From Salegentibacter tibetensis (lineage in GTDB: Bacteria > Bacteroidota > Bacteroidia > Flavobacteriales > Flavobacteriaceae), in contig NZ_JAIQZA010000016.1 of the NCBI RefSeq assembly GCF_020164485.1, positions 1 through 64,000 on the forward strand: a stretch of DNA of 64,000 bases, read 5' to 3'. Under the pieces are notes generated by a model. That model saw only the letters and a program-made list of their open reading frames with translations. It was not told the origin of the DNA and did no database searches. Within the stretch, counting starts at the first letter, position 1. The number at the start of each line of letters is the position of its first letter. This document shows positions 1 through 5,645 of this stretch, piece by piece. Both the position numbers and the translations under genes were made by a program.

Positions 1-1
1 T

Positions 2-120
2 CCGGAATAGCTGTCCGCTTTGAAACGGAATCACTGTCCGTTTTGCCCCGGAATGGGTGTCCGCTTTAGTCCGGAATCACTGTCCGCTTTCCAGCGGAAT
101 GGGTGTCCGTTTTCACCGGA
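2..120. repeat. Five 23-bp tandem repeats, probable end of an IS21-family element
   Basis: Five consecutive units of exactly 23 bp start at 2, 25, 48, 71 and 94. They follow the pattern nCGGAATnnnTGTCCGyTTTnnn, and a partial CGGA follows at 117. Multiple terminal repeats with a CGGAAT...TGTCC core are typical of IS21-family (istA/istB) ends, where they serve as transposase binding sites. The transposase genes would lie to the left, outside the window, so the family is an inference. The element end seems to fall near 120-128, inside the coding sequence of the next gene. Confidence 0.7.
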
Positions 121-571
121 TTGTGCAAATTAGAACTTGTGGGTGGGAATATGAGCCATAAACCATGGTAGCTATATAGCATCCTCCCGATTTTTTTGCG
201 TGTTCACTGTCTAATATACTTTCATATTTTGCAACTTCCACTTTATTTTCTTCCGTTAAGGGTAAAGTATTCAAGTGAGAAAAAACTGATTTGATGGCAT
301 CGTAACGGGAATTGAAATCATTTGTTTGTGGTCTATTATTAAGCCAATCTTCATCCATTTTCAAAAAATGATGTGCCTGATTAGTCAGTTCTTTAGCAAA
401 AAACACAGCATTTTGATTTATATACGTATCATAAACTTCATTCGAAACGCTGGGTTTTAGTTCTTTTGCTTTTTTAAAGACTTCTAACGCAATAAAATGA
501 TTATCATTTCCGCTTAGTTTCAATGTATCTATATGATTATTAATATTTTCTGAAAATTCATTATAATCCAT
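113..571 (-). pseudogene. CFI-box-CTERM protein, C-terminus cut off by the IS-like end
   Basis: The 152-aa product has an unrecognised helical N-terminal part (residues 1-125) followed by GGCYIATMVYGSYSHPQV, with the key Cys at 131. This is the opening of a CFI-box-CTERM domain, a C-terminal module of unknown function that normally runs about 70 residues further. Here the reading frame ends six residues later, inside the 23-bp repeat array. The neighbouring gene at 863-1573 keeps the complete module, which shows what was lost. It is the last gene of a leftward operon, 16 bp after the 91-aa gene. Truncation is seen directly; loss of function is inferred. Confidence 0.7.
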
Positions 572-587
572 ACTTTTTATTTTAAGG

Positions 588-863
588 TTAGCTGAATATA
601 GAATTCAAATGTTCATTAAAAATTTTATCCATTAAGATTTCAAACTCAAAATTTGATAATCCTGCACTGTTCGCAATTCCTGCTAAATTCCCTTTTAATT
701 TTACTTTATAATCTAAGAGCCCTTTTTTTATAAGCATTCCAAATATTGGAGAATTTTCACTATAACCTAAAGATTTAGCATCACTTACAATTAAAACTGT
801 ATACTCTTTAAAAGAAGTTTTTATTTGATTTTCCAAACGTTTAATTTTCAATTTTTTAAACAT
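588..863 (-). CDS. Hypothetical 91-aa protein
   Basis: A small protein of 91 aa that I do not recognise. It starts with a lysine-rich stretch (MFKKLKIKRLE) and is predicted to be mostly helical, with no signal peptide and no clear membrane segment. Its ATG overlaps the stop codon of the upstream CFI-box-CTERM gene by one base (TAATG), so the two are probably translationally coupled. The next gene starts 16 bp downstream. It may be a soluble partner of the two flanking CFI-box proteins; this rests on gene position only. Confidence 0.6.
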   Translation of the reverse strand: MFKKLKIKRLENQIKTSFKEYTVLIVSDAKSLGYSENSPIFGMLIKKGLLDYKVKLKGNLAGIANSAGLSNFEFEILMDKIFNEHLNSIFS

Positions 864-1573
864 TACTCAATTTTTTTATTCAGGTTACTAATAAATACAT
901 CTAATCGCCTCCTTATTAATCTCTGAATGAATGGAAAAGGTTTTAAAATATTAATTAGACGAGGTGCTATTAAATAATAAATTCGAACACCTACAACACC
1001 GTATTTACTCCTCATTAGAACTTCATCCCTGTATTCCCTAAGTCGATTAACTTTGGGATGATATATATCGTTATAAACCAAAGTTGCTACATAACAATTA
1101 TCATTACCTTCTGGATTTTTAGTTAAAGTTTCGAAACTTAATTTTTCCTGATATCCCGTTACAGAAAGGCAATTTTTATATACTTGAGTCAATCTTTGCC
1201 CCCTTCTAGTAAGGCTCACATTTACTTTAATTTCGGAATCTGTAATTGTAATTTTTTCACCAGCAATGGGATCCGCCCCTAATACTATAAACTTATCTAT
1301 AACAAACTGGTCTTGATTCGCAAACGGCATATAGCCATCATCCACCACAAGAGCAAAAACAAACTTTGGCCCATCCCTAAAATAAAAACTTACATTTCCA
1401 ATATAATTTTTCTGAATAAAGACTTTCCAAAATGATCTTTTACTAGGAAGATTCTTCATTTGAAAATTATCACCAATAAGAGTTGTTGTAAGTACCGAGA
1501 ATTCTAATTCAAATGTTCTTAAATCAGGATTATTTAAAAAATCTATCAGGGAATTTAATACAGGAGGATTCAT
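863..1573 (-). CDS. CFI-box-CTERM domain protein
   Basis: This 236-aa protein has an unrecognised beta-rich N-terminal region (about residues 15-150). Its C-terminal module starts at NCYVATLVY (Cys160) and continues through HPKVNRLREYRDEVLM and a final basic, helical segment rich in Arg and Ile. That layout matches the CFI-box-CTERM module found in bacterial proteins of varied N-terminal content. No signal peptide is visible. The last helices could associate with a membrane. It sits in a leftward operon with a second, truncated protein of the same type, with a one-base overlap to the 91-aa gene. Function is unknown. Confidence 0.65.
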   Translation of the reverse strand: MNPPVLNSLIDFLNNPDLRTFELEFSVLTTTLIGDNFQMKNLPSKRSFWKVFIQKNYIGNVSFYFRDGPKFVFALVVDDGYMPFANQDQFVIDKFIVLGADPIAGEKITITDSEIKVNVSLTRRGQRLTQVYKNCLSVTGYQEKLSFETLTKNPEGNDNCYVATLVYNDIYHPKVNRLREYRDEVLMRSKYGVVGVRIYYLIAPRLINILKPFPFIQRLIRRRLDVFISNLNKKIE

Positions 1574-1580
1574 AAGAGGT

Positions 1581-1784
1581 CTAGCTAAAAATTATTATAA
1601 GTAGAGCAAAAACTGCTACTATATTTATGATATTATGGAGGATTTTCGCTGTATCAGAATCCCCTCTTTGGCTTGGAGGGGTATCAGAATATGCAATAAG
1701 ATTTATCAACCCACCTAAAAGAAACCAACCTACTACAACTCCAATTATTGAAACAATCATATATTTAATTTGTAAGTTCTTCAA
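1581..1784 (-). CDS. Small two-helix membrane protein
   Basis: A 67-aa protein with two likely transmembrane helices: residues about 8-31 (MIVSIIGVVVGWFLLGGLI) and about 49-66 (IINIVAVFALLIIIF). A short polar loop with a PPSQRGDSDTAK stretch lies between them. It overlaps the end of the upstream lipoprotein gene by 20 bp and lies 7 bp ahead of the CFI-box gene, so it belongs to the same transcript. I recognise no family. A rightward reading frame over the same DNA is less plausible because it lacks such a composition and context. Confidence 0.55.
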   Translation of the reverse strand: MKNLQIKYMIVSIIGVVVGWFLLGGLINLIAYSDTPPSQRGDSDTAKILHNIINIVAVFALLIIIFS

Positions 1785-2049
1785 CTTTTTTATCTGCTAC
1801 CGAAGCCTCCATAAAAACCGAACCAACCTCCTTATACACCATCCTATCCCCACAAACATCTAGCGAATATGTAGCACCATGCAAACCCTTTACACTATCA
1901 ATAATTTCAATATTCTCTTTTTCACATCCTTGTTCAACTGAAACTGTTTTAATTAAAGTTTTTTCAGTAGTTCCGAACATTGTTCTTTTAACTGATCCAC
2001 AGGAAATAAAAAATAAGCCCACAAAAGCGGAAATAATAAGTTTTCTCAT
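1765..2049 (-). CDS. Small lipoprotein
   Basis: A 94-aa precursor with a clear type II signal peptide: MRKLIISAFVGLFFISC, lipid cysteine at residue 17. The mature part is about 78 aa and has two further cysteines (VEQGCEKE and LDVCGDR) that could form a disulfide. It would be anchored in the periplasm or outer membrane. It is the first gene of the leftward operon that includes the small membrane protein and the CFI-box proteins. No family is recognised. Confidence 0.65.
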   Translation of the reverse strand: MRKLIISAFVGLFFISCGSVKRTMFGTTEKTLIKTVSVEQGCEKENIEIIDSVKGLHGATYSLDVCGDRMVYKEVGSVFMEASVADKKVEELTN

Positions 2050-2066
2050 AATGATTTAGTTTATAA

Positions 2067-2459
2067 TTATTGCTTGATTAAAATTGAATTCGCTACTTGA
2101 TTCCAAGTTATCTCGTTATTGGAAATCTTTGTGAAGTCTAAATTTACCGTCTGTCCATAGGCTAATTCAAGGCGCAACGAATAACTATCATTAGATTTAT
2201 TTTCCGTCACCACTACTTCTTGCCCTAATTCACGGCTATGATTAATTAAATCTCTTTGGCTAGTTTCTGCAAAACCCTGAATTAACACTAAATCATTTGA
2301 TGTAAACTTTACACCACTATTCCCAGTTGTAGAGCCTTCAACTAACCAAGTACTTTGTATCCAATCTGGAGGGTTGATATCGTTAGATTTATTTTCATCA
2401 TTAGTAGAACAGGATAAGAAAACAGCTATAATAAAAATTAGATATATCGGATATTTCAT
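2067..2459 (-). CDS. Lipocalin-like-sized lipoprotein, hypothetical
   Basis: The open frame extends upstream to 2567, but the start at 2459 is chosen because it gives a proper lipoprotein signal, MKYPIYLIFIIAVFLSC. The product is then about 130 aa. The mature protein begins with an Asn/Asp-rich linker and contains a W-I-Q-S-T-W-L-V-E-G segment followed by beta-strand-like stretches. This resembles small lipocalin-like flavobacterial lipoproteins in length and layout, although I cannot assign a family. It lies 17 bp upstream of the next lipoprotein gene and is divergent from the XRE regulator. Confidence 0.6.
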   Translation of the reverse strand: MKYPIYLIFIIAVFLSCSTNDENKSNDINPPDWIQSTWLVEGSTTGNSGVKFTSNDLVLIQGFAETSQRDLINHSRELGQEVVVTENKSNDSYSLRLELAYGQTVNLDFTKISNNEITWNQVANSILIKQ

Positions 2460-2535
2460 AAAAACAGGTGTATTCTCAAAGTTAGCATTACTGGATATAT
2501 TAAAAATGTGGTTTTCCTCATATAAATTAAAATAG

Positions 2536-2547
2536 CGCATATATGCG
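2536..2547. promoter_or_regulatory. Perfect 12-bp palindrome, possible XRE operator
   Basis: CGCATATATGCG is a perfect inverted repeat in the interval between the leftward lipoprotein gene (start 2459) and the rightward XRE regulator. Its place between divergent genes, just ahead of a small HTH protein, is typical of an autoregulatory operator. The link to the regulator is inferred. Confidence 0.4.
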
Positions 2548-2583
2548 TTGATTTTAAAATCTTGCATTTTTCACCTTTATCGG

Positions 2584-2811
2584 GTGCAAAAAATAAAAAA
2601 TAAATCCTTCATTAATTCATTCGGCAATAAGCTTCGAGAAACAAGAAAACTCAAGAACTTTTCTCAAGAGCAACTTGCATTTGAAGCCGATATTCCCATT
2701 TCGCAGGTAGGGCGTATTGAAAGAGGGGAAGTAAATACTACAATAAGCACAGTTTCAGCCATAGCGAGAGCCTTAAAAGTATCTCCCAAAACCTTATTTG
2801 ATTTTGAGTAA
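2584..2811 (+). CDS. XRE-family HTH regulator
   Basis: A short Cro/C1-type DNA-binding protein. The HTH core reads FGNKLRETRKLKNFSQEQLA then ISQVGRIERGEVNTTIS, followed by IARALKVSPKTLFDFE. This is the standard 55-60-residue five-helix XRE domain and almost the whole protein. The open frame begins with TTG at 2548. The GTG at 2584 is preferred because the residues before it do not resemble the family, so the product is about 75 aa. It stands alone, next to the polymerase-like gene and the CFI-box operon, as is common for regulators of mobile elements. Confidence 0.75.
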   Translation: MQKIKNKSFINSFGNKLRETRKLKNFSQEQLAFEADIPISQVGRIERGEVNTTISTVSAIARALKVSPKTLFDFE

Positions 2812-2859
2812 AATTTGAAATAATTTTTGGAATAAAAAAATAAAATTGTTCAAAGACAT

Positions 2860-2891
2860 AAAAAAAGCCCCTTCCAAAATCTGAAAGAGGC
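2860..2891 (-). terminator. Rho-independent terminator after the polymerase-like gene
   Basis: On the minus strand GCCTCTTTC, a 7-nt loop and GGAAGGGGC form a 9-bp stem with two G-U pairs, followed by a run of Ts. It lies 36 bp beyond the stop codon of the 461-aa gene. Confidence 0.65.
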
Positions 2892-2926
2892 GAATTTGTC
2901 AATAGTATTATAGCTTACATTTTCTC

Positions 2927-4312
2927 CTAAGCAGCTACCAGAATTTCTTTTAAAGAAGGATTATCAATGGTTATATTTGCGTTTAGTCCCTTATTCCGAA
3001 AAACATAATCAATAATATCCAGAACCATAGCAGAATCTTCCTCTCTACAAATAACTGAATCATGTATTGTTGTATGGGAAATACCATGATCCTTAAGAAT
3101 CGGTTTAATTCCATCGATAAAGATATAAGATTCTTCTCTCTGAAGTTTTATAGAGAAAGCATTATCCCCGTATTGCCTTTTATACTTAGAAATATACTCA
3201 GCAACCGTAGGGAATAGCTTTTCAAATTTCGTTTTATTTTCAGATTTAAAGCCGTCAGAAGAAAAAAGCATTCTAAACATCACCTGTTTAGCTTCTCCTC
3301 TATTTTCTAAATTAAGCTCTGCCTGAATAAACTCATATAGATTTCCCTCTTCACTAGCTTTATAGAAATTCAAAGCATCTAAAGAATCAAATCCATCTTT
3401 TCTCATAACCATAGAAAGGATAGCAAACTGGCTGTTTGATAAATCTATATTTATAAGACCGTTATCTTTCATTACAACCTCTCTAAGCTCTTTAGGTAAG
3501 TTGGTTAGGTTAGTATCTAATCTGTAGTTAGTTTTGTTCCTGTAGGCTCTGAAATTACCTTCAGCAAGGTTATCAATACTAGAAGACCAGGAGGACTTTA
3601 GGCGGTTTTTCTTTAGCTCCTTATATTTGTCCTCGGTCATATAGTAATAGTCTAAACCATCTTGAATAAGAGAGCTATCTGTAGAAAATGACTGTTCTAC
3701 TAACTTCCATATTTTAGCAGGAAAAGTTTTAGTTCCGTCATTCACTAAGATTACATCTTGCTCGTTAGCATCTACATTATAGTTATACTTATAGCTTTCT
3801 GAATCAACCAAATCTAAACAGTTGTTCATAGTAATATCAAGACTGTTTTTATTGATCTCCAAACCATTTACAAATAGCTCAAAATCCTCTGAGTGCTGTT
3901 TGTTTTCCTCCCCTAAATCTCTGGTCAAATCCATTTTGTAGAAAAATTTCCTACGCTCTAATTCTATCTGTCCTTTGAAATACTCAGGGTTAATTCTATA
4001 GTAGTGACATTTGGCAGTATCAGGACTGTAAAGACCGTCACACTCAATAATTCCTGCATTCTGAAGTGGAAGAATTACCTTAGTACTATAATAGGTAGTA
4101 AAAACCTTCTTTAAATACTTAGAAGAAACAAAAGTGTAATGACAAGAGATACCAAATCTTTTCTCACTCCCATTCTTTAGGAGGCTGAGAAGGTGCAGAA
4201 ATTTATTATACATAATATTAGTACCCTCTAAAGCATCAACATCTGTAAAGATCTCACGAGGTAGTGAAATATTGCTATAAAATTTTTGTTTCCCGTCCTT
4301 TCCTGACTTCAT
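2927..4312 (-). CDS. Family A DNA polymerase-like protein of an accessory element
   Basis: A 461-aa protein. Residues about 285-445 match the palm and fingers of family A polymerases. Motif A is INIDLSNSQ with Asp290. Motif B has R338, K342, F346 and F350 at intervals of exactly four, as in the O-helix R-x3-K-x3-F-x3-Y of Pol I. Motif C is TIHDSVI with Asp418. Between B and C, FEKLFPTVAEYISKYK resembles the Pol I segment with FPGV-EYM. There is no 3'-5' or 5'-3' exonuclease domain. Residues 1-250 are unlike Pol I; about 50-115 could be a winged helix, as in replication initiators. It may copy or prime DNA of an integrated element. Polymerase fold is strongly suggested; activity is inferred. 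Confidence 0.6.
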   Translation of the reverse strand: MKSGKDGKQKFYSNISLPREIFTDVDALEGTNIMYNKFLHLLSLLKNGSEKRFGISCHYTFVSSKYLKKVFTTYYSTKVILPLQNAGIIECDGLYSPDTAKCHYYRINPEYFKGQIELERRKFFYKMDLTRDLGEENKQHSEDFELFVNGLEINKNSLDITMNNCLDLVDSESYKYNYNVDANEQDVILVNDGTKTFPAKIWKLVEQSFSTDSSLIQDGLDYYYMTEDKYKELKKNRLKSSWSSSIDNLAEGNFRAYRNKTNYRLDTNLTNLPKELREVVMKDNGLINIDLSNSQFAILSMVMRKDGFDSLDALNFYKASEEGNLYEFIQAELNLENRGEAKQVMFRMLFSSDGFKSENKTKFEKLFPTVAEYISKYKRQYGDNAFSIKLQREESYIFIDGIKPILKDHGISHTTIHDSVICREEDSAMVLDIIDYVFRNKGLNANITIDNPSLKEILVAA

Positions 4313-4754
4313 TGGTATTTTAACTTTTATTTAACTTTTTATAGTTTGGTTTTTGTTTTTTATATTTGTATTTTTGCGATTCTAATTTTTTGCGAAATTA
4401 ATAATAATTCTCCTGTTACGCAAATTTATTACCTGATTTTTTATTCATCTAAATACTAATGATCATAAGTATCTGAAACTAAATAAGTTTAGTAGGGTAT
4501 TGATGCTGGGAATTCAAGGCGGAAGGAAGCTCAAACGCCCAAAACATCATTAGTTTATCTCTATTATACCAATCTTTTAGAAAATATTAATTTATCTAAA
4601 AATTAAAATAAAGACAAGAATACATTATGTGTTCAACTATTGGAAGGAGGGTAAGTATCAAATTCTGGTAGAAAACCAAAAATTCTGCGGATTGCTTTTC
4701 TAATAACTAAATTACAAAAGTAACTATATGTGATGTGATGTTTTCAACCTGTAT
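4313..4754. other. 442-bp gap holding the island/comM junction
   Basis: No plausible gene is seen. Close to the polymerase-like gene the motif TTTTTGCGA occurs twice (4371-4379 and 4387-4395), with CGCAAA inverted at 4419-4424; this could be an operator or iteron. The rest is AT-rich without codon structure. The missing half of comM is not present here, so one boundary of the insertion or deletion should lie near 4755-4810. Confidence 0.5.
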
Positions 4755-5645
4755 TTAAGACTGTAAGAGCTTCTTTAGTCTGTGGTTTACATTAGCTACT
4801 GTGTCTTCTGAAATTGTATGATGAGGACTTCTAAATGGCCTCTGTGACATCAAACCCACGTGTTCCTTTACCCGCCCAACTACACTGTGAATTTTGGTAG
4901 TTTCCAGAGCTTCGTGCAGGGTCATTGGTGGTAAAATACTTGGCAGGCGTTTGGCCAACATCGTTTTCCCGGCTCCCGGCGGACCGATTAGAATAATATT
5001 ATGACCGCCCGCTGCGGCAATTTCCATACAGCGTTTTATAGATTCCTGTCCCTTTACATCGGCAAAATCATGCTCGGGGTGGTCCAGGTTTTTGTAGAAT
5101 TCTTCGCGGGTATTAATAATGGTAGGCTCTAAAGTTTCATTTTTATCAAAAAAATTGATCACTTCAGTAATGTTTTCAACTCCATAAACTTCAAGGCCGC
5201 TTACGATAGCGGCTTCTTTCGCATTTTGCTTCGAAAGAATAAATCCCTTAAAACCTTCTTCTTTAGCTTTAATGGCAATAGGCAAGGCACCTTTTATGGG
5301 TTGTAAGCTTCCGTCTAGCGAAAGCTCACCCATAATAAGATATTCTGAAATATTTTCTGCTTTAATTTGACCTGAAGCGGCCAGAATTCCCAGGCTTAAG
5401 CTAAGATCGTAAGCCGAACCTTCCTTTCTAAGATCGGCCGGCGCCATATTGACAATGATCTTTTTACCGGGAAATTTATAGCCGTTATTTTGAAGGGCGG
5501 CGGCAATTCTAAAACTACTTTCCCTTACCGCATTATCGGGAAGACCTACCAGATGATAACCAATGCCGGTTGCTACATTTACCTCAATAGTAATTGTAGT
5601 TGCCTCTACCCCAAATACGGCACTTCCATAAACTTTTGTTAACAT
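4755..5645 (-). pseudogene. comM: comM (YifB-type Mg chelatase-like AAA ATPase), C-terminal half missing
   Basis: ComM is a hexameric branch-migration helicase that helps incorporate foreign DNA; full length is about 510 aa. The first 280 residues here are normal: the ChlI domain (from MLTKVYGSAVFGVEA), then the AAA part with Walker A GPPGAGKTMLAKRLPSILPP. After RPFRSPHHTIS the family sequence should go on to Walker B and the sensor motifs. Instead a 17-residue unrelated tail starting EDTVANVNHRLKK ends the frame. Without Walker B it should be inactive. comM is a known insertion hot spot for genomic islands in other bacteria. Confidence 0.8.

Follow-up and report, generated by a model that had tools for sequence, protein, structure and literature searches.

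A compact family A-fold polymerase with a predicted winged-helix domain, carried by a comM-inserted integrative element of Salegentibacter tibetensis

The gene described in this study encodes a protein of 461 residues, for which a well-supported prediction indicates the right-hand fold of family A DNA polymerases, and it resides at the end of an integrative element that has split the chromosomal gene comM. Its palm is very probably of the active DNA-polymerase type, with catalysis deduced from the fold and from conserved residues, whereas its N-terminal part resembles DNA-binding domains. With respect to its function, we tentatively propose, at a little below even chances, that the protein starts or assists the copying of its element. 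The analysis is based on a window of 64,000 nucleotides from Salegentibacter tibetensis (assembly GCF_020164485.1, contig NZ_JAIQZA010000016.1, positions 1 to 64,000), where the gene and its parts are located as follows:

2927..4312, minus strand: compact family A-like polymerase gene, 461 aa, ATG start
3929..4312, minus strand: winged-helix domain, residues 1-128 (modelled alone, pLDDT 87.5)
2963..3565, minus strand: palm and fingers, residues 250-450 (from conservation, fold and divPolA2 homology)
3482..3523, minus strand: conserved stretch preceding motif A, R264-R277, RLDTNLTNLPKELR (from conservation)
3425..3457, minus strand: motif A, residues 286-296, LINIDLSNSQF (from conservation)
3260..3301, minus strand: motif B or O-helix, residues 338-351, RGEAKQVMFRMLFS (from conservation, model and hhalign)
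3053..3070, minus strand: motif C, residues 415-420, TIHDSV (from conservation and model)

An initial annotation of this DNA had proposed an open reading frame with the same boundaries, which were borne out, but had not specified its strand, which is the minus strand. A plus-strand reading of 2927-4312 was rejected, since stop codons are found throughout the frame.

The fold is illustrated in a model of the protein obtained with AlphaFold2 from a 77-row alignment (mean pLDDT 90.3, pTM 0.87). In a Foldseek comparison of this model with the PDB, all 26 matches with E <=0.001 are family A DNA polymerases (KlenTaq, T7 DNA polymerase, Pol I, the apicoplast polymerase and Pol theta), and VIA-align superimposes it on apPOL with a Z of 13.7 over 255 residues at 4.5 A, followed by T7 DNA polymerase (Z 13.4) and Klenow (Z 13.1), with family A alignments that cover 255-279 residues, mostly from about position 132 to about 453. 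A search of PDB sequences with the protein gave no match beyond chance. Both structural comparisons thus agree on the right-hand family A-type polymerase that had been proposed in the initial annotation, and a different fold, which it had named as evidence to the contrary, was not encountered in the model. In the model, the connection from the N-terminal domain to the palm consists only of the helices 129-148, 155-167 and 227-250 and a small insert, and relatives from phages are shorter by about 50 residues; we read this connecting stretch as a reduced thumb. An exonuclease domain is absent from the 461-residue protein and a thumb of normal size is not evident in the model, in line with the earlier description of both as missing.

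Residue conservation was quantified in an alignment of 77 diverse relatives, each <=32% identical to the window protein, which were drawn as representatives from IMG/VR and GTDB loci. Asp290 of motif A, located in the sequence NIDLSN, and Q295 are found in 77/77 of these relatives, R264, N293, K342, Q391, E394, H417 and D418 each in 76/77 and T270 and S294 each in 75/77, while the position of R338 is occupied by R or K in 74/77 and those of F346 and F350 by F or Y in 62/77 and 76/77, respectively. As judged from this alignment, the conservation of the motifs far exceeds chance. It encompasses the residues singled out in the initial annotation, namely Asp290, the motif B residues R338, K342, F346 and F350 (contained in RGEAKQVMFRMLF) and Asp418 in TIHDSV, and the distance of 48 residues between D290 and R338 is as it had described. 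Asp290, Lys342 and Asp418, whose lack of conservation would have spoken against its reading, are retained in 77, 76 and 76 of the 77 relatives. Conserved beyond its list are R264, T270, in most cases R277, the triplet N293-S294-Q295, Q391 and E394. D290 and D418 are predicted metal ligands, the latter placed in the turn of a beta-hairpin of the model, and the stretch R264-R277 resembles, when compared by eye, the TGRLSS..NLQNIP..R segment of Pol I. Q295 occupies the gate position that corresponds to E710 of Pol I (D+5).

At the level of sequence, the relationship to canonical polymerases is distant. The window protein does not match any family in Pfam, and since none of the 11 proteins in the first alignment matched DNA_pol_A (PF00476) at E 10, an identity as canonical Pol I was rejected. 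NCBIfam gave no convincing match in any of the 77 members, and searches against PHROGs yielded weak matches of single members only, the most telling to 'DNA polymerase I' at 0.002. In a profile comparison by hhalign, the flavobacterial PolA profile was aligned at an E of 0.043 in the expected register, with motif B placed onto EQRSNAKTVNFGIIYG of Pol I and motif C onto QVHDE, a distance at which the sequence profile alone would be insufficient as proof of descent. The window protein thus has its fold (Z up to 13.7) and the positions of motifs A, B and C in common with Pol I, Klenow and T7 DNA polymerase, whereas it differs from these enzymes by HDS instead of HDE in motif C, by Gln at the position of E710, by the lack of an exonuclease and by its reduced thumb.

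No paper on the family of the window protein was found in the open literature, where the phage polymerases divPolA1 and divPolA2 come nearest. The latter is a PolA variant of proteobacterial phages that consists of a palm and an unassigned N-terminal globular domain, without thumb or exonuclease, that occurs beside a full replicative polymerase, and for which a role in repair or as RNA polymerase was suggested (PMC11348598, 2024). After rebuilding this family from its published member AUR84708, we found the palms of both families to be homologous (hhalign probability 98.2%, E 3.8e-14), with the columns of R264, R277, D290, R338, K342 and D418 in common. Since divPolA2, at about 430 residues, also shares the general layout of the window protein, with a palm, an N-terminal domain and neither an exonuclease nor a normal thumb, the statement in the initial annotation that no described system has this layout was too strong. 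Both families differ in several respects. In a tree of the palm region, whose long end branches do not fix a root, 38 target rows are split from 10 divPolA2 rows at 98/98 support, and PHROG 4756, which corresponds to divPolA2 and is matched by its members at 1e-64 to 1e-91, did not match any of 11 scanned proteins of the window family at E 1. At the gate, divPolA2 has Glu, His or Trp, compared to Gln in all rows of the window family, whose motif A is further distinguished by the sequence N-S-Q-P, and while divPolA2 is found in proteobacterial phages, the window family is carried mostly by integrative elements of Bacteroidota and by phages. From these sequence comparisons, the window family would constitute a large, unnamed and separate clade that is sister to divPolA2. 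The profile of PHROG 4756 is labelled as of unknown function; it has members in ICP1 phages and is matched more weakly in L020, a genome from the order to which the window belongs. divPolA1, from the group of the Flavobacterium phage immuto, is an extra divergent phage PolA with a truncated thumb, as in the window protein, but retains an inactivated exonuclease domain in place of which the latter contains a winged helix, and is thus set apart by its description (PMC11348598).

The residue at the gate bears on the nature of the substrate, as it is Glu710 in Pol I and Gly542 in T7 RNA polymerase. The Gln found at this position in 77/77 relatives, in place of Glu, and the HDS sequence of motif C, which is shared with T7 RNA polymerase and other T7-type single-subunit enzymes of the same palm superfamily, would both be compatible with an RNA polymerase or primase that supplies the element with RNA primers or transcripts. 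This option, which was also raised by the authors of the divPolA2 study (PMC11348598), appears rather improbable. In the PDB ranking, DNA polymerases are found at E values of 1e-5 to 1e-3, compared to 0.54 for the top single-subunit RNA polymerase (6ymv), HDS is the sole local match in an alignment to T7 RNA polymerase, and the promoter-recognition domain of T7-type enzymes was not matched. Moreover, the bulky Gln should still hinder the access of rNTPs, in contrast to the Gly of the T7 enzyme, and we thus presume that a DNA polymerase of this family would prefer dNTPs.

The second part of the protein, its N-terminal approximately 125 residues, most likely adopts the structure of a winged helix. 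When residues 1-128 were modelled alone (59 rows) and searched with Foldseek, there was no match below E 0.001, and the top matches are mostly winged-helix transcription factors and a Rep-DNA complex. The top rows obtained with VIA are the N-domains of plasmid initiators (4pql, Z 7.3; 4pt7, Z 6.9), and since other winged helices (TFIIE, Fur, ORC) follow within 1 Z (Z 6-6.9), the likeness to initiators specifically is suggestive only. Model and VIA comparison nevertheless predict a domain of the DNA-binding type, as had been anticipated for this part of the protein. The winged-helix N-domain of RepA_N-type plasmid initiators (4pql, 4pt7 and 5kbj, the latter with Z 6.3) may be comparable to the one predicted here, while the window protein differs from these initiators in having neither a Pfam hit to any known initiator family nor detected iterons; we know of no RepA_N-type initiator that contains a polymerase domain. 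In 17 loci, no iteron-like repeats above shuffled controls were detected upstream of the gene or inside it, which argues against an initiator of the iteron type. It appears unlikely that the protein acts as a 'RepPolA', whose winged helix would pick the origin and whose family A palm would begin DNA synthesis without a separate primase. Such a single-protein strategy of initiator and polymerase is otherwise known from elements with archaeal-type primase-polymerases and with family B polymerases.

The genomic context of the gene is defined by the insertion of its element into comM, with the following features in the window:

1..4806, no strand assigned: end next to comM of an integrative element with a serine recombinase (base 1 is where the contig begins)
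2548..2811, plus strand: Cro/C1-type HTH regulator (HTH_3, E 1.4e-14), tail to tail with the polymerase-like gene
4755..5645, minus strand: 5' half of the comM gene (yifB, Mg chelatase-like) that the element has split
4807..4808: dinucleotide GA on the minus strand, the probable attachment core, within the comM codons TIS-DVALVGG

The polymerase-like gene is the first inside the element, at a distance of 440 bp from the comM fragment. The 3' half of comM is found on a second contig (C137), joined in frame to a large serine recombinase that precedes it, and both form a single ORF of 813 aa (L129, 5274-7715), and the remainder of the element is distributed between this contig and an unassembled gap that is not closed in the assembly. 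The two flanks read ..TTTCAGA|AGACAC on C67 and ..GGGATGTAGC on C137, compared to ..TTTCAGATGTAGC in an intact relative, and the GA common to both flanks is the probable attachment core, as expected of a serine integrase. An intact comM of 512 aa is found in four genomes of the same genus (L119-L122). This split of comM, with its halves on two contigs, agrees with the carriage by an integrated element that had been assumed before. The HTH protein is a possible regulator of the element. Two minus-strand ORFs at 113-571 and 863-1573 contain a common C-terminal CY(I/V)ATxVY..HPxV motif. In two other genomes of the genus, comM is broken or shortened without the element of the window, being present as two fragments in G299 (L123) and with an internal deletion in G296 (L124).

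Besides a resolvase, C137 contains a UG39 reverse transcriptase together with a VirE-PriCT2 partner, an HNH-HIT protein and an unassigned protein of 259 aa. The reverse transcriptase and its partner, located with the defence cargo at 9807-14554 of L129, are matched by PADLOC models at E values of 1e-189 and 3e-116, and the HNH-HIT fusion and the 259-aa protein may be further parts of the same system. Because of the match to the UG39 RT-associated VirE-PriCT2 model (3e-116), a BT4734-like protein on this contig was rejected as primase of the element and assigned to the defence cargo. The defensive nature of the cargo, which in Polaribacter includes a restriction-modification system, would fit a catalytically inactive or regulatory relative that retains the polymerase fold and acts, for instance, against phages or as an autoregulator that binds DNA. 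We consider this very improbable in light of catalytic positions that are essentially invariant across a very diverse family, of the presence of the gene in phages and of the lack of any PADLOC match to the polymerase-like protein, whose identity as a defence protein was rejected on the same ground.

A comparison with other elements at this site would favour a role in replication. In Polaribacter vadi (L109), comM is cut at the same codons by a complete element that contains a serine recombinase, an ORF of the Phage_integrase family, a polymerase-like gene, a BsuBI/PstI-type endonuclease and an Eco57I-type methylase. A third comM element is found in G297, a genome from the genus of the window, with a serine recombinase, a resolvase and a weak match to an HUH Rep protein (REP_ORF2-G2P, E 4e-4, below the Pfam cut-off), and no member of the polymerase family was found in this genome. 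As seen from these three independent elements, serine-recombinase elements have repeatedly inserted at the codons TIS-DVALVGG in Flavobacteriaceae. In the complete element of P. vadi and in the incomplete one of the window, where the other identified genes are the serine recombinase, the resolvase, the HTH regulator and the UG39 RT defence set, the polymerase-like gene is the only one seen that resembles a replication gene, and from the three elements we infer that it fills the same replication slot as the HUH protein. The part that is missing from the incomplete element of the window could, however, contain a Rep gene of its own.

Members of the family are present in 16 of 395 sampled Bacteroidota genomes, about 4%. 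A tyrosine or large serine recombinase is found near the gene in 17 of 33 chromosomal loci and a resolvase in 3 more, thus placing either within about 7 ORFs in at least 20 of the 33, whereas 124 control ORFs outside the element gave one weak match to recombinase markers (8.6e-6). In 9/33 loci, from Chryseobacterium, Epilithonimonas, Kordia, Pedobacter and others, a pair of an AAA_24 ATPase and a DUF3871 protein is located near the gene, usually directly adjoining it and mostly accompanied by a tyrosine integrase, an arrangement suggestive of integrative elements or phage satellites of a class that has no name. The cargo of this module (L105, L108, L110-L113, L272, L273, L279) is variable. Viral relatives, which were not found in a scan with the single window protein, were recovered with alignments of sub-groups, the first mixed alignment being devoid of a usable block. 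The nearest relatives in the tree reside on viral contigs of 28-66 kb, whose neighbouring genes, in those checked, include terminase and RecA, and a canonical PolA was not detected in eight such contigs, which may be fragments. Further relatives are found in tailed phages and in huge phages of 600-735 kb. In one phage of 595 kb (LR756511; L014, 3434-5877), the gene extends into the beginning of a different short PolA-like gene that follows directly downstream (430 aa, PF00476 E 1e-20).

As 9/10 huge phages contain a match to PolB and the tenth (LR756511) one to Pol III alpha, the window family was rejected as their main polymerase and would constitute an extra enzyme there. This observation underlies the main rival to a role in replication, in which the protein would be an accessory DNA polymerase for repair, gap-filling or translesion synthesis that acts independently of an origin and whose winged helix binds DNA without specificity. 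We regard this as a possibility of appreciable but somewhat lower weight. It is in accordance with divPolA2, which similarly occurs beside a full replicative polymerase (PMC11348598), with the absence of an exonuclease and the reduced thumb, with the lack of detected iterons, and with the AAA_24 ATPase that neighbours the gene in many integrative elements and that may be related to recombination. In contrast, the benefit of a repair enzyme is not obvious for small elements where the gene lies adjacent to an integrase and among few other housekeeping genes. Besides the other DNA polymerase of huge phages and the lack of detected iterons, a Hymenobacter plasmid that carries a relative together with its own annotated replication initiator argues against the role in replication.

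In the preferred reading, where the enzyme starts or assists the copying of its element, the winged helix would bind DNA of the element itself. A 3' end located there would be extended with dNTPs by the palm, which would use D290 and D418 as metal ligands and K342 of the O-helix for two-metal nucleotidyl transfer on a primer-template. The polymerase would thus start or assist the copying of the excised element, which host enzymes would then complete. The earlier proposal of a polymerase that serves an integrated element has, with the exception of its claim on the layout and of its option of a primer-polymerase, which stays speculative, held up in the computed fold, in the conserved catalytic residues, in the predicted N-terminal domain of a DNA-binding type and in the carriage by the comM element, to which the homology to divPolA2 is added.

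Collectively, our study draws attention to a family that occurs in roughly 4% of the Bacteroidota genomes sampled and on many phage contigs, yet is absent from Pfam and NCBIfam and annotated as hypothetical. Its small size and its lack of proofreading could make this family A polymerase useful as a reagent. Together with divPolA2, it illustrates that enzymes with a compact, thumb-poor family A palm and an additional N-terminal domain are widespread, and it provides a testable candidate for how integrative elements copy themselves.
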